Shown piece by piece: positions 27,801 to 38,581 of a DNA stretch of 38,581 bases. The position numbers and the translations under genes are program-made. The DNA lies in the NCBI GenBank assembly GCA_001768975.1, contig MEND01000131.1, positions 1-38,581 on the forward strand. Direction: 5' to 3'. How positions within the stretch are numbered: the first letter of the stretch is position 1; every line of letters starts with the position of its first letter. Under the pieces are notes generated by a model. The model was not told the DNA's origin, did not search any database, and was given only the letters and a program-made list of their open reading frames with translations. The stretch is from Bacteroidetes bacterium GWA2_31_9 (lineage in GTDB: Bacteria > Bacteroidota > Bacteroidia > Bacteroidales > GWF2-33-38).

Positions 27801-28679
27801 ATGAGATACATAATAATAATATTGATTTCTGTTTTTTTTCAGTTTGTAGCTAGTTCACAAACGTCTGAAAATTACAATGGAGAAACGATAAACCTAACTG
27901 ATGCAGAAGGTCTTAAACAGGGTAAGTGGCTTAAGTTTAATACTGATAAAACTGTTGTAATTGAAGAAGGAAAGTACGTTAATAATAAAAAAGAAGAGCT
28001 TTGGAAACAATATTATAATAGTGGAAAAATTAAAACTGAGCTGACTTACAAGAATAATAAAGCTGACGGATATGCAAAGTTTTACTACGAAAACGGAAAT
28101 GTTTCAGAAGAAGGTTTATGGCAAAGTAATAAATGGATAGGTGCTTATAAAATGTATTTTGAAAATGGAAATCTATCTTATGAGTGGAATTATACCGAGC
28201 AAGGAAAGCGAACAGGAGTCCAAAAATATTATCATCCAAATGGTAAAATAATGATTGAAGGCGATTGGCAAGAAGGTAAAGAAAACGGAATAATTAAAGA
28301 ATACGACGATTCAGGAAATCTTGTTGCCGAAAAGAACTTTAATGGTGGAAAATTTGATGTTGCTACTTCAAAAGAATACACAACAACTTCTACAAATAAC
28401 AATACTACTAATAATACAACTCAAGCTGAAATCAAAAAAGATACCGTAAAAACCAATACGAATGTAACCACTACAACTAAAGCTTTAGAATTATTTACCG
28501 GAACTGGCTATAATAAATTATACACCAAAGATGGCAAAATTGAACAAGAAGGCGATTTTGTAAATGGTATATTAATGAAAGGTAAAAAATTCTATTACGA
28601 TGCAACTGGCAAATTATCTAAAACAGCCATTATTAAAGACGGTAAAGTCCTTAACGTTATTGTCGAAGAACATAAGTAG
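27801..28679 (+). CDS. MORN-repeat (YwqK-like) secreted protein
   Basis: Signal peptide; repeated YYxNGKI..EG.W..GK.NG repeats. Confidence 0.85.
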   Translation: MRYIIIILISVFFQFVASSQTSENYNGETINLTDAEGLKQGKWLKFNTDKTVVIEEGKYVNNKKEELWKQYYNSGKIKTELTYKNNKADGYAKFYYENGNVSEEGLWQSNKWIGAYKMYFENGNLSYEWNYTEQGKRTGVQKYYHPNGKIMIEGDWQEGKENGIIKEYDDSGNLVAEKNFNGGKFDVATSKEYTTTSTNNNTTNNTTQAEIKKDTVKTNTNVTTTTKALELFTGTGYNKLYTKDGKIEQEGDFVNGILMKGKKFYYDATGKLSKTAIIKDGKVLNVIVEEHK

Positions 28680-28776
28680 TTTTTGATTTTTGAATTAGAA
28701 AAATAACGTTATTAAACACCACACATGTTCAATTAAATTTGGAAATATTGTGTGGTTTTTATGAACATATAAACGA

Positions 28777-30329
28777 GTTGGCGGATATTTGAAAACGCTC
28801 CTAGATAATTGTACTGTTTAAATTAAATAATTGGGGTGAACAAATATCTTTCCTTTACAGGGTTCGTTTTTATTCTATTTACATTAAAAAGAAATAATAT
28901 AAATGGCTAATAATACTCATGGTGCTCTTCTTAAAAGAGGAATTGAAAGTACTGTAGCACAAAATCTTGTTGAATCTGGTTATACAATTGAAAAATTACA
29001 ATACAAGACTTTAGAAGACTTAATTGCCCTTGGAATACCAGAAGTACAATCAAAAAAACTATTGGATGGACGCCCACCAATTCCAGACGACACGTTTGCT
29101 CAAGTTTTACATGATTCCAAACATGTTTGCTGTGTTTGTAGAGAAGCAAGTAGAGGAATTATTATTCACCATATCGAAGAGTGGGCTATAAGTCGAAGTC
29201 ATGATTATGATAATTTGGTTGTATTATGCTCTTTACACCACGATGAAGCTCATACTAAAAGATATTTAACAATAGTTCTTAGTTCAGACAAGATCCGATT
29301 CGCAAGAGAGAAATGGTATGCACAAGTCAAGGCTCATGATACTGCTGTAATTACAGGACACCCAATTCCCGAATTTGACAATCAGGAAATCAGTGAGGTT
29401 GAAGTGAGTGATGTGGAACAATTCATTAATTCATTAAAATCTAATACTATCATCCGATTAAAAGAAGGAAAGTACAATCTTTCTGACATCGCAAAATACG
29501 ACTCTAATCCAAACGTAAGATGGCGAACTGTTTTTAACGGTTATGAACCTCATATTGAAAACATAAAAAATCTGAAAATAGTTGGCGAGGGAAGGGTTGA
29601 AATATTAATTAACCCATCATACGCATGGGTTCTGAGATTTAATAATAGTTCAAACATTGAAATAACTAATATAACCGCAGGACATATCACTCCTGGAAGT
29701 TGTACTGGTGGAGTATTTATGTTTAATGAATGCCACCGCATAAAAATATCAAACTGTGACCTTTATGGATGTGGTACATATGGATTGACATTCAATAAAA
29801 GTTCTAATGGCACTATTAATAAAACGATTGTTCGAGAATGTACATACGGCATTGCCCAATTCTTTAATTCAAGTAAAATAATTTTTAGAGATTGTTCATT
29901 TTTAGACTGTCAAGAGTTTGATTTATTGACCATTCTTGAATATTGTGAAGATATTTCATTTTTGACATGCAATTTTCGCAATAATTATATCTCCTGGGAT
30001 GAACGATTTTTCATCGAGACAGATAGAACCTGCAAGGACATTGTAATTGAATACTCAGAAATAAAGAACAATAAGGTTCTAAATTGGTCTAATGAACCTG
30101 AGGTAATTTTAACAAGACACAATGATTACAGCAATAATAACTTTCAACACCCAGAAGACCAGTGGTATTTTGATGATGAAAATTAACTATGAAAGACAAA
30201 CATCCGATAACAGCACCTTGCCAAAAGCAGGTCAGTCGTGGTTAAAGAAACTTTTGGCTCTGAATAAATATTAGAGATAGCTTGACAGGTTGGTGCTCCG
30301 AAAGCCCCGCCTTCGGCAAGCTGCAAACC
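28777..30329 (+). other. Candidate cassette 1 (start motif GTTGGCGGATATTTG, ORF 28903-30186, closing imperfect palindrome 30197-30336)
   Basis: Start motif is complementary to CAAACATCCGATAAC (30197-30211) at 12/15 positions; palindrome flanks AACAGCaCCTTGCC...GGCAAGCTGCAAACCGTT. Confidence 0.5.
28903..30186 (+). CDS. HhH-like + HNH nuclease domain fused to a right-handed beta-helix domain
   Basis: GIESTVAQNLVESGYTIEKLQYKTLEDLIALGI; HVCCVCREASRGIIIHHIEEWAISRSHDYDNLVVLCSLHHDEAH; repeated short beta-coil segments NSSNIEITNITAG, ECHRIKISNCDLYGCGTYGLTFNKSSNGTINKTIVREC, NSSKIIFRDCSFLDC. Confidence 0.8.
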   Translation: MANNTHGALLKRGIESTVAQNLVESGYTIEKLQYKTLEDLIALGIPEVQSKKLLDGRPPIPDDTFAQVLHDSKHVCCVCREASRGIIIHHIEEWAISRSHDYDNLVVLCSLHHDEAHTKRYLTIVLSSDKIRFAREKWYAQVKAHDTAVITGHPIPEFDNQEISEVEVSDVEQFINSLKSNTIIRLKEGKYNLSDIAKYDSNPNVRWRTVFNGYEPHIENIKNLKIVGEGRVEILINPSYAWVLRFNNSSNIEITNITAGHITPGSCTGGVFMFNECHRIKISNCDLYGCGTYGLTFNKSSNGTINKTIVRECTYGIAQFFNSSKIIFRDCSFLDCQEFDLLTILEYCEDISFLTCNFRNNYISWDERFFIETDRTCKDIVIEYSEIKNNKVLNWSNEPEVILTRHNDYSNNNFQHPEDQWYFDDEN

Positions 30330-30359
30330 GTTCCCACACAGTTTAAAAAAGCTTTGATT

Positions 30360-30617
30360 AAGTTTGTTTCCTAATAAAGAAACTCGTAAAATGACAGAGA
30401 ACTCTTTAAAAAGCTTAATGAAAATATTTGGGAATTTAGAACACAATTCAACAGTAAAGCATATAGACTTTTTTCATTTTGGGACAATACAACAGAACAA
30501 ACAACTTTAGTTGTAGCAACTCATGGAATATTGAAAAAGACACAAAAGACACCAAAAAAAGAAATAGAAAAAGCGGAAGAAATTAGAAAACACTATTTTA
30601 TCAATAAAAACAAATAA
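30360..30617 (+). pseudogene. HigB/RelE (Gp49-like) toxin remnant, N-terminus missing or frameshifted
   Basis: From 30393: DRELFKKLNENIWEFRTQFNSKAYRLFSFWDNTTEQTTLVVATHGILKKTQKTPKKEIEKAEEIRKHYFINKNK*; stop upstream in frame at 30387; PNKETRKM in an adjacent frame. Confidence 0.75.
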
Positions 30618-30619
30618 TT

Positions 30620-30943
30620 ATGAATAAGAAATTAAAAACAATCTCGCTTGATACAATGATAGACAAGCATATTGGTAAAATCGGAACTCCAAAACGAGAT
30701 AGCTTTGAAAATGAGTTAAGGCTTGACTTGCTTGGAGAAGCAATAAAACAAGCACGATTAGAGCGAAAATTAACACAAGAAGAACTTGGGCAACTCGTAG
30801 GAGTTAAAAAAGCACAAATTTCAAAATTGGAAAACAGCTTGACAGATGCGAGATTCGAGACAATAATTAAAGTTTTTAGAGCATTAAACGCTAAAATAAA
30901 TTTTAATGTAGAGCTACTGAATCAAACAATGAAACTAGCTTAA
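30620..30943 (+). CDS. HigA-like XRE-family antitoxin
   Basis: LGEAIKQARLERKLTQEELGQLVGVKKAQISKLENSLTDARFETIIKVFRALNAKINF helix-turn-helix; directly follows the toxin remnant. Confidence 0.9.
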   Translation: MNKKLKTISLDTMIDKHIGKIGTPKRDSFENELRLDLLGEAIKQARLERKLTQEELGQLVGVKKAQISKLENSLTDARFETIIKVFRALNAKINFNVELLNQTMKLA

Positions 30944-31079
30944 AATAAAAACCGTGTGGCAACAAATGCTAATTGTAATAAGGCTTTCAGTGATAATTTG
31001 AGCATTCTGCATTGTACAAACTTCGGTGTAACTCGACAAAGAGGTATTCCAAAATCCCTTGCTGCATTTAGCCTTAGAC

Positions 31080-31190
31080 GTTATCGGAAATTATGAGTCG
31101 TCCTAAAAAATGTCAACACTCCAAAAAAGATAAATTGAAAAATATGAAATCTAAATCTTTAAAGGGATTTTGTATTTTCCGATAAATCGA
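31080..31190 (+). other. Possible third, ORF-poor cassette start
   Basis: GTTATCGGAAATTA (31080-31093) complementary to TATTTTCCGATAAA (31173-31186) at 12/14 positions; only a 30-aa ORF (31093-31185) between. Confidence 0.35.
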
Positions 31191-31822: not shown

Positions 31823-32222
31823 TAAGACATTGCTTCTTAAGCAACCTTATCAGATAATAAATTTAATTTTTGCCGGAATTTTCATATCAATTATGATTTA
31901 TTCTGGCTTTTTTTCTGCTGAAAAAAACAATCACCCTATTGATTGTCAGGTTTATGAAAATACTGGCAAACCATGTCCTACATGTGGTTTATCAAGATCT
32001 TTTTCTGAAATTATTCGATTTGAATTAGATAAAGCAGTAATCTATAATAAGTATTCATTAAAATTATTTTCATTTTTCTTTATTGAATTAGTTTTAAGAC
32101 TATGTTTTTTCATAATTTTATACTTTAATTTTATCCGATTAAGAATAATTCTATTTATAGATATAATTATTTCAGTCGTATTATTTTTATATTGTTTTAG
32201 TGATTTAATATTTTATGTATAA
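31782..32222 (+). CDS. DUF2752 family membrane protein (start uncertain)
   Basis: TGKPCPTCGLSRSFSEIIRFELDKAVIYNKYS motif plus TM segments. Confidence 0.75.
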   Translation: MLLNQQNLTNQLNNKTLLLKQPYQIINLIFAGIFISIMIYSGFFSAEKNNHPIDCQVYENTGKPCPTCGLSRSFSEIIRFELDKAVIYNKYSLKLFSFFFIELVLRLCFFIILYFNFIRLRIILFIDIIISVVLFLYCFSDLIFYV

Positions 32223-32670
32223 GCTATTTATATTATTATTTGTTTGTTTTGAACTTATTGCATGCAAGATTAAACTTGTTGACGAAGTAGTAAAAACATA
32301 CCCAGATGGAAAAAAAGCCATGGTTAACATGTACGAAGAAGGAGACTCAACTAAAGTCGTAAAACGTCAAATTAAATATTACCAAAATGGGAATATAGAA
32401 GTTGAAGGCGATTTTGAAAATGGGAAACGTACCGGCAAGTGGACTTATTATTATGACTCAGGTAATAAGTGGAGCGAAGGTACATTTGAAAACGATTTAA
32501 GTAATGGAAAATTTACTGTTTGGTATAAAGATGGTAAAATAAATTACAAATCAGAATATAATAAAGGACAACCTGATGGCAAATGGACTTTTTATGATGA
32601 AAAAGAAAAGCCTATTAAAGAAGTAGTTTTTGAAAAAGGAAACAAAAAATCAGAAAAAAAGTTAGATTAA
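32215..32670 (+). CDS. MORN-repeat (YwqK-like) protein, possible lipoprotein
   Basis: N-terminal LFVCFELIACK; KYYQNGNIEVEGDFENGKRTGKWTYYYDSGNKWSEGTFEN repeats; start overlaps the upstream ORF. Confidence 0.85.
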   Translation: MYKLFILLFVCFELIACKIKLVDEVVKTYPDGKKAMVNMYEEGDSTKVVKRQIKYYQNGNIEVEGDFENGKRTGKWTYYYDSGNKWSEGTFENDLSNGKFTVWYKDGKINYKSEYNKGQPDGKWTFYDEKEKPIKEVVFEKGNKKSEKKLD

Positions 32671-37665: not shown

Positions 37666-38581
37666 TTATTTTTCTTCTTCTGGTGTTGAAGATAAAGTGC
37701 AAATCCCTTTTTCATCAAAAATTTTATACGGATATTGAACACTATTTTCTTTATATATTATTTCCTTCCATACTTTACCATTTTCGTAATACCAAAGCCA
37801 TTTTCCATCTTTTTTGCCATCAATAAACTTACCTTCATAAAACAGATTACCAGATTTAGAGTAAAAATTCCAAGCACCTATTTCAACACCATTAATAAAA
37901 TTTCCACATTGCTTTAAATTATCGTTTTCATAATAAATAAACCACTCTCCATCTAACTTATTGTTGTTAAATTTTCCGATAGTATGTAATTTTCCATTTG
38001 GATAAAAGCTTTTCCACTCTCCTATTTTAATATCATTTTCATATTGTCCAATTTCTTTAATTCCACCTTTTAAATTTAATGAATCATTGATGTCGAAATA
38101 TAAAATATATTGTCCTGTAATTTTATCACTCATATATTTACTCTCCATCATAATATTACCACTTGGGTAATATCCGATAAATATTCCTTCAAGTTTTCCA
38201 TTTTTATAATAACATTTTTTTTGAATATCCCCATCATTATAATCTTTGTAATAACCTATAAACAAGCTATCAAATACACCATTTACTTTATATGATTTTT
38301 CTCTGATTTTTTCATTTTCATAATATTCAATAAACTCCCCATTTTCTTTTCCATTTTTAAAATTTCTTATTGCACGAATTTTACCATTTTTAAGATAACT
38401 TATTGTTTTTCCGTTTAATATGCCCATATTATATTCTGCTTCTTCCATCAGAATACCATTAGGATAATATATCAAAAGCTTTCCGTTCAATAAGTTATTG
38501 GTGTATGACTGAATTTGTTCGACTTGACCAGTAATATCATAAGTTTTTGTAATTCCTTCGAGAGAACCATTTTTATAATTA
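37666..38581 (-). CDS. MORN-repeat (YwqK-like) protein, 5' end beyond the window
   Basis: Repeats Y.NGKL..IG.F.NNKLDGEW..YYEN; frame stays open upstream of 38490 to the window edge (NYKNGSLEGITKTYDITGQVEQIQSYTNNLLNGK). Confidence 0.85.
   Translation of the reverse strand, partial: NYKNGSLEGITKTYDITGQVEQIQSYTNNLLNGKLLIYYPNGILMEEAEYNMGILNGKTISYLKNGKIRAIRNFKNGKENGEFIEYYENEKIREKSYKVNGVFDSLFIGYYKDYNDGDIQKKCYYKNGKLEGIFIGYYPSGNIMMESKYMSDKITGQYILYFDINDSLNLKGGIKEIGQYENDIKIGEWKSFYPNGKLHTIGKFNNNKLDGEWFIYYENDNLKQCGNFINGVEIGAWNFYSKSGNLFYEGKFIDGKKDGKWLWYYENGKVWKEIIYKENSVQYPYKIFDEKGICTLSSTPEEEK

Follow-up and report, generated by a model that had tools for sequence, protein, structure and literature searches.

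The locus studied here raises the question of whether a run of genes bounded by long imperfect palindromes in a Bacteroidota genome is an array of mobile gene cassettes and, if so, to what kind of system it belongs. It lies in a window of 38,581 nucleotides (the whole stretch of DNA analysed), contig MEND01000131.1 of Bacteroidetes bacterium GWA2_31_9. An initial annotation of the sequence had proposed attC-like cassettes of an integron or of a divergent or different system. This proposal is borne out by covarying sites, pairing of cassette ends, orientation, cassette-precise sharing between genomes and platforms composed of a recombinase and an attI-like site. We put at roughly 0.87 the probability that the window is part of an integron-like cassette system of Bacteroidota, represented by an attI-like site without an adjacent recombinase and two gene cassettes. 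Judged from sequence, the system appears to be widespread and, by the features tested, not of the IntI type.

The locus in the window

The features of the locus are as follows.

28709–28779, + strand: attI-like site, with the inverted repeat ACCACACA (28718–28725) / TGTGTGGT (28749–28756), then ACATATAAACGA
28777–30329, + strand: gene cassette 1, 1553 bp, from GTT to the next GTT
28777–28791, + strand: start arm of cassette 1, GTTGGCGGATATTTG
28903–30186, + strand: gene of cassette 1, 427 aa; C-terminal right-handed beta-helix, N-terminal part HNH-like by eye
30197–30211, + strand: closing arm of cassette 1, CAAACATCCGATAAC
30209–30332, + strand: attC-like site 1, closing cassette 1; 124 nt, AAC...GTT
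30330–31079, + strand: gene cassette 2, 750 bp
30390–30617, + strand: presumed fragment of a HigB-like toxin gene that lacks a start codon; TAA in frame at 30387–30389
30620–30943, + strand: HTH antitoxin-type gene, 107 aa (Pfam HTH_3, E 4e-13)
30949–30963, + strand: closing arm of cassette 2, AAACCGTGTGGCAAC
30961–31082, + strand: attC-like site 2, closing cassette 2; 122 nt, divergent subtype
31080–31186, + strand: third unit of the initial annotation, a possible cassette start without closing site, 107 bp

The attI-like site, which ends at the GTT where cassette 1 starts, is a correction to the earlier account. The complementarity claimed there for the first unit (28777/30197), 12/15 between GTTGGCGGATATTTG and the complement of CAAACATCCGATAAC, was found again; this start outranks every other GTT 15-mer in the 6.5 kb upstream, the next best reaching 10/15, and one other GTT 15-mer in the whole window also stands at 12. 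Pairing in the second unit (30330/30952), given as 10/12, is slightly higher, at 13/15 over GTTCCCACACAGTTT, which is, the arm itself aside, the sole GTT 15-mer above 10 among 1529. Both cassettes show an A-versus-G mismatch at position 11, as fixed across the family. The palindromes do open at AAC, as had been noticed, and close at GTT; their proposed length of 125–140 bp was slightly too great, the measured figures being 124 and 122 nt.

Site 1 scores 111.9 bits (E 3.4e-21, own genome) with R1, our covariance model of the site family, a value to be read with the fact that R1 includes this site, BLAST having found the family in other genomes beforehand. Site 2 scores 93.5 bits (E 4.7e-17); its stem is almost wholly different in sequence from the rest of the family, and pairing is kept by compensatory changes.

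The predicted cargo, an HNH protein and a toxin–antitoxin pair, was confirmed in part. The HTH antitoxin is supported by Pfam. No Pfam match to HNH was obtained for the cassette 1 protein, whose HNH-like look rests on a motif read by eye and which matches Pfam PF13229 (Beta_helix). The toxin looks truncated: no open reading frame of at least 60 aa is listed in its region, and the fragment, which we take to be HigB-like, is probably a 5′-truncated pseudogene beside an intact antitoxin gene. Sequence homologous to cassette 2 occurs in Algoriphagus boritolerans (72.6% identity) and at one further locus, L084 (74%). Homologues of the cassette 1 protein contain either its first ~150 residues or the beta-helix part; in 10 other genomes, a site lies near such a homologue at one locus only, and this protein therefore lends the system no support.

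Two to three cassettes had been counted, the third starting at 31080. The complementarity of that unit (31080/31173, 12/14) holds but is modest against chance, a partner of this kind within 300 bp being seen in 0.4% of shuffles and at 5/775 window GTTs; GTTATCGGAAATTAT fits the cassette-start profile, in which position 11 is A in 88% of starts. Against a third cassette stand the lack of any closing site found by R1 after 31080, even with filters off, a position 11 that is paired, unlike in the family, the absence of a gene and a length of only 107 bp. We consider it unlikely that 31080–31190 is a real third cassette. Since a closing site is absent, we do not count it, which leaves two cassettes in the window; the unit is a remnant at most, or chromosomal flank.

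In relatives, the contig of a congener has a gap of Ns at this locus; in the next relative, a member of the same family, another gene lies upstream and synteny is absent. Several genes with MORN-variant repeats lie in the window (27801–28679, 32215–32670 and 37666–38580; one recognized by Pfam, the others by eye).

A family of sites with a conserved structure

A blastn search with 30190–30345 gave matches to its 3′ half, at ~80% identity, in further genomes of the order, including a congeneric one. In that genus, two sites bound a gene at locus L031 whose first bases, GTTATGTGCTAT, can pair with those that precede the closing site. Ten sites align almost gap-free at 122–124 nt, and 95% of 301 distinct sites measure 121–126 nt. 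Structure is conserved in these palindromic cassette sites: 14 of the 20 inner-stem pairs have changes on both sides (RNAalifold and an explicit pair count), and 91.7% of cells are paired, a level equalled in none of 500 shuffles and falling to 25–38% in slid registers. An asymmetric spacer separates the inner stem from the outer arms, with one A on the left and AAAAC, AAACC and similar sequences on the right.

GTT is present in 91% and AAC in 93% of the 301 sites. The observation that the bases after GTT do not strictly match GTTRRRY extends to the whole family, with GTTRRRY in 5% and RYYYAAC in 10% of these sites; the integron attC rule is not followed. Single-strand folding of either window site was no better than that of shuffles (z −0.9 to +0.7). 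As folding alone is unremarkable, support for the window sites comes from their relatives and not from single-sequence energy. No Rfam match was found in the window.

The centre of the site (e.g. 30238–30256) keeps a TTAATTGAACAT-like sequence, and the attI copies of this genome carry its reverse complement, TGTTCAATTA (28727–28737 in the window). The shared motif could possibly be bound by the N-terminal extension of the recombinases described below.

Cassette ends and exchange of cassettes between genomes

Between consecutive same-strand sites, cassettes have a median length of 1.08 kb (quartiles 0.81–1.85 kb). Like R″ in integrons, the closing arm pairs with the first bases of the cassette that it closes: over 141 distinct cassettes, the nine bases after GTT are complementary to this arm at 6.2/9 positions on average, against 3.05/9 in mismatched combinations; a permutation test of this pairing was run on the first 72 cassettes. 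In 106 good cassettes, positions 1–9 match in 95–100% of cases, position 11 in 3% and positions 12–15 in 73–87%. A bulge or mismatch is thus fixed at ~11 nt from the crossover. Arm complementarity is lacking in about one-fifth of consecutive-site pairs, as missed sites or decayed cassettes may explain.

The longest open reading frame runs in the orientation of the site in 141/149 cassettes, and arrays of up to ~50 kb contain sites once per gene, in one orientation. In relatives, as distinct from the window locus, comparison of whole loci points to cassettes moving singly between sites. A cassette of 1133 bp is 99.9% identical between genome G302 and Algoriphagus formosus, one of 870 bp is 100% identical between L224, from an OLB5 MAG that bears the label Chlorobi, and L180, from a MAG of the Sphingobacteriaceae, and one of 838 bp is shared at 91.5% by the latter MAG (L180) and a Dyadobacter (L239). 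On both sides, homology breaks at the GTT boundaries and the flanks are unrelated. Near-identical cassettes thus recur in different families, a pattern that argues for transfer between genomes cassette by cassette. The conditions under which the initial annotation was to fail, complementarity no better than in shuffled sequence and relatives free of cassette-precise gains or losses, are contradicted by these data.

Two cassettes each occur twice within the G302 array (L081, L082; 512 bp at 99.8% and 718 bp at 100%), which suggests recent copying within the array. Cargo of other cassettes in the genome under study includes Avs2, a NERD-helicase and a RhuM/Fic protein. The Avs2-type anti-phage protein, of 1423 aa, is the product of a cassette on contig C96 of this genome (L109:1627–5898), the first one after an attI and a decayed recombinase.

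Platforms and their recombinases

In genomes with long contigs, arrays begin beside a tyrosine recombinase gene on the array strand. A platform of recombinase, attI-like site and array was found at seven loci (L101, L103, L106, L219, L188, L271 and, in a Flavobacterium MAG, L247); at all of these except L271, the first cassette was recorded as starting ~100 nt or less from the recombinase stop. The attI-like end is often TATTTACTA directly followed by GTT. A complete 66-kb plasmid of Chryseobacterium sp. SNU WT5 carries a recombinase, then an inverted repeat, ACATATAAACAA followed by GTT and, all on one strand with it, four sites; its attI end (ACATATAAACAA followed by GTTGG) matches that of the window.

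The window itself has the attI and cassettes only. Its genome has exactly four copies of a 75-bp sequence that ends at such a GTT; the window copy has 80% identity over 71 nt to the three others (contigs C96, C22 and C55), each of which abuts the GTT of a first cassette. Three of the four copies lie behind decayed recombinase 3′ ends. The earlier remark that no integrase is visible is thus right for the window, remnants of recombinase 3′ ends being present on other contigs. No such remnant lies beside the window copy, which is for this reason assigned as attI by similarity; the two-cassette window reads as an attI-like copy with cassettes and no recombinase beside it. On C96, C22 and C55, a near-identical recombinase 3′ end and attI precede different cassettes, an arrangement that suggests duplication or spread of the platform end itself within the genome. 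Recombinase pairs on C50, C177 and C226 were considered as array recombinases and rejected, with ~28–33% identity to the array type and no site-bearing contigs among them.

Ten aligned array recombinases keep the catalytic residues, mostly with an SPLD-like tail, and lack the ~40-residue I2 insert present in all four IntI references. Escudero et al. (PMC4792948) attribute to this insert recognition of extrahelical bases and control of second-strand cleavage. A tree of 31 recombinases with a small IntI reference set places the array recombinases in several supported clades outside IntI, which groups as a single clade (100/100). Six array-associated recombinases score 163–217 bits on TIGR02249 (cut-off 265), with matches in two pieces. 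IntI4 (PDB 2a3v), the best PDB hit, is likewise matched in two pieces. Scores on the XerC/XerD models TIGR02224/TIGR02225 are 146–177 bits, below cut-offs of ~330, and those on NF040815 (‘site-specific tyrosine recombinase/integron integrase’) are 192–201 bits, with a cut-off of 220. An integron-like subgroup in which the insert is ‘not fully conserved’ has been described (Smyshlyaev et al., PMC8138268) and may include recombinases of this kind.

In several lineages, the array recombinases have an N-terminal extension of 150–300 aa, reaching ~590–600 aa in total (e.g. L101:9822–11630, L219:1434–3197 of Algoriphagus formosus, L103:7225–8985). In these three, the extension shows repeats of a WSxxxKCWYxP-type motif and has no Pfam match above the cut-off. 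For the Algoriphagus recombinase, a structure predicted from that one sequence had a pLDDT of 41, too low for a structural search; what can be recognized in its extension is a repeated beta-alpha pattern.

The recombinase of L104, one of the six scored on TIGR02249, is a separate lineage beside an array end that was entered as ‘other’ in the tree and is also represented at L110. At L104 it lies beside a transposase. A further end match of 14/15, GTTGAACTACATCCC, is shared by this lineage away from the cassette arrays, and the recombinase could possibly belong to a single-recombinase mobile element with a similar end logic.

Distribution

The search for further GTT...AAC sites that had been recommended gave 17 R1 sites in the genome under study, many of them single. 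With 9–11 candidates scored per genome, the wider counts are lower bounds: R1 sites occur in at least 210/393 genomes of the order and, in a phylum sample of genomes at least 90% complete (E ≤ 1e-4), in at least 133/296 Bacteroidota genomes (~45%) and 78/140 genera. A 30-nt exact pattern of the most uniform subtype was present at 120 or more named loci, nearly all in Bacteroidota; among the matches listed are Flavobacterium, Algoriphagus, Belliella, Spirosoma, Pontibacter, Runella, Dyadobacter, Chitinophagales, Saprospiraceae, Bacteroidales and others. Misbinning may account for a few short contigs that carry the labels Clostridium, Chloroflexi or Acidobacteria. A blastn search of sites against plasmids gave no match at E 1e-5, the plasmid example having been found via its recombinase.

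Comparison with known systems

The likeness to integrons, such as those of class 1 and the Vibrio cholerae superintegron, is extensive: a recombinase and an attI, co-oriented one-gene cassettes closed by imperfect palindromes, GTT/AAC ends, a cassette start that pairs with the 5′ end of its own site, chromosomal and plasmid forms, and a cargo of defence and toxin–antitoxin genes. An ordinary integron remnant (CALIN), with canonical attC sites and a lost IntI, would share this architecture and logic, and the recombinases score best or second best on TIGR02249 and have IntI4 as best PDB hit. This explanation is nevertheless very unlikely, because the six scored recombinases stay below the TIGR02249 cut-off with matches in two pieces, the I2 insert is missing in 10/10, IntI keeps to its own clade, and the GTTRRRY and RYYYAAC motifs are rare. 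The sites further differ from those of integrons in their fixed length of ~124 nt and conserved centre, neither of which is typical of canonical attC, and in arms that pair over ~15 nt with the position-11 mismatch. The recombinases, outside IntI and extended in several lineages, are usually encoded in the same direction as the array, with attI at the 3′ end of the gene where seen.

Explanations that dispense with site-specific recombination of cassettes fare worse. Dispersed copies, 17 in one genome and many of them single, are what a non-autonomous transposon or MITE family flanking genes by chance would leave; occurrence once per gene in one orientation over arrays of up to ~50 kb, and arms specific to each cassette in place of fixed terminal repeats, make this extremely improbable. 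We give next to no credence to a structured RNA element or terminator without a role in recombination. A covarying hairpin between co-oriented genes would suit it, but the outer arms pair across the whole cassette and do not form one contiguous element, homology between distant genomes ends at GTT, recombinases are linked to the arrays and the window lacks an Rfam match. Arms ~1 kb apart in the linear array whose pairing is nonetheless conserved point to a substrate of folded DNA and speak against an RNA element.

The integron-like cassette system that we favour also has parallels outside integrons. Xer-type and XerA-like recombinases (NF040815) have the same catalytic core and no I2; those of the arrays differ in their linkage to attI and cassettes, in an SPLD-like tail as in IntI1 and, in some, in long N-terminal repeats. 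In CTXphi, a folded single strand is recombined by recombinases without I2 (PMC4792948), but this phage borrows the host XerCD for a phage site, whereas the recombinase here lies beside its array and would move many cassettes.

In the mechanism that we propose, an excised cassette, circular or single-stranded, would fold and bring its two arms, start and end, into pairing around the GTT/AAC crossover, giving a helix with ~15 bp outside the asymmetric spacer and 20 bp inside it. The platform recombinase would join the folded site to attI at GTT. Insertion would be directional, so that genes face away from attI. We infer single-stranded DNA recombination from these sequence features. The platform recombinase of the genome studied was probably lost or left unassembled, and the window cassettes, whose platform has no recombinase, would move only by one acting in trans.

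Significance for Bacteroidota

Integrons are reported to be nearly absent from Bacteroidota, with a single complete one, in Salinibacter (IntegronFinder 2.0, PMC9024848). No description of the present system was found in the open-access literature searched, subscription papers and preprints being outside the search. The cassette system described here has its own class of site, occurs in ~45% of the Bacteroidota sampled, including cultured isolates and at least one plasmid, and its near-unchanged genes appear to move between families. With R1, genome collections could be searched again for cassettes that may escape current attC models.

The I2 domain and extrahelical bases have been held to be the key adaptation of integrases to folded single strands (PMC4792948). 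With ten cassette-linked recombinases that lack I2, this idea becomes open to direct testing. Tentatively, and at a little short of even odds, we suggest that cassette capture evolved in Bacteroidota on single-stranded sites in folded form, through recombinases related to Xer and IntI in which I2 was never present, whether as a separate invention or as a pre-I2 ancestral state of integrons, and that the N-terminal domain, the fixed 124-nt geometry and the position-11 mismatch may replace I2 and the extrahelical bases.
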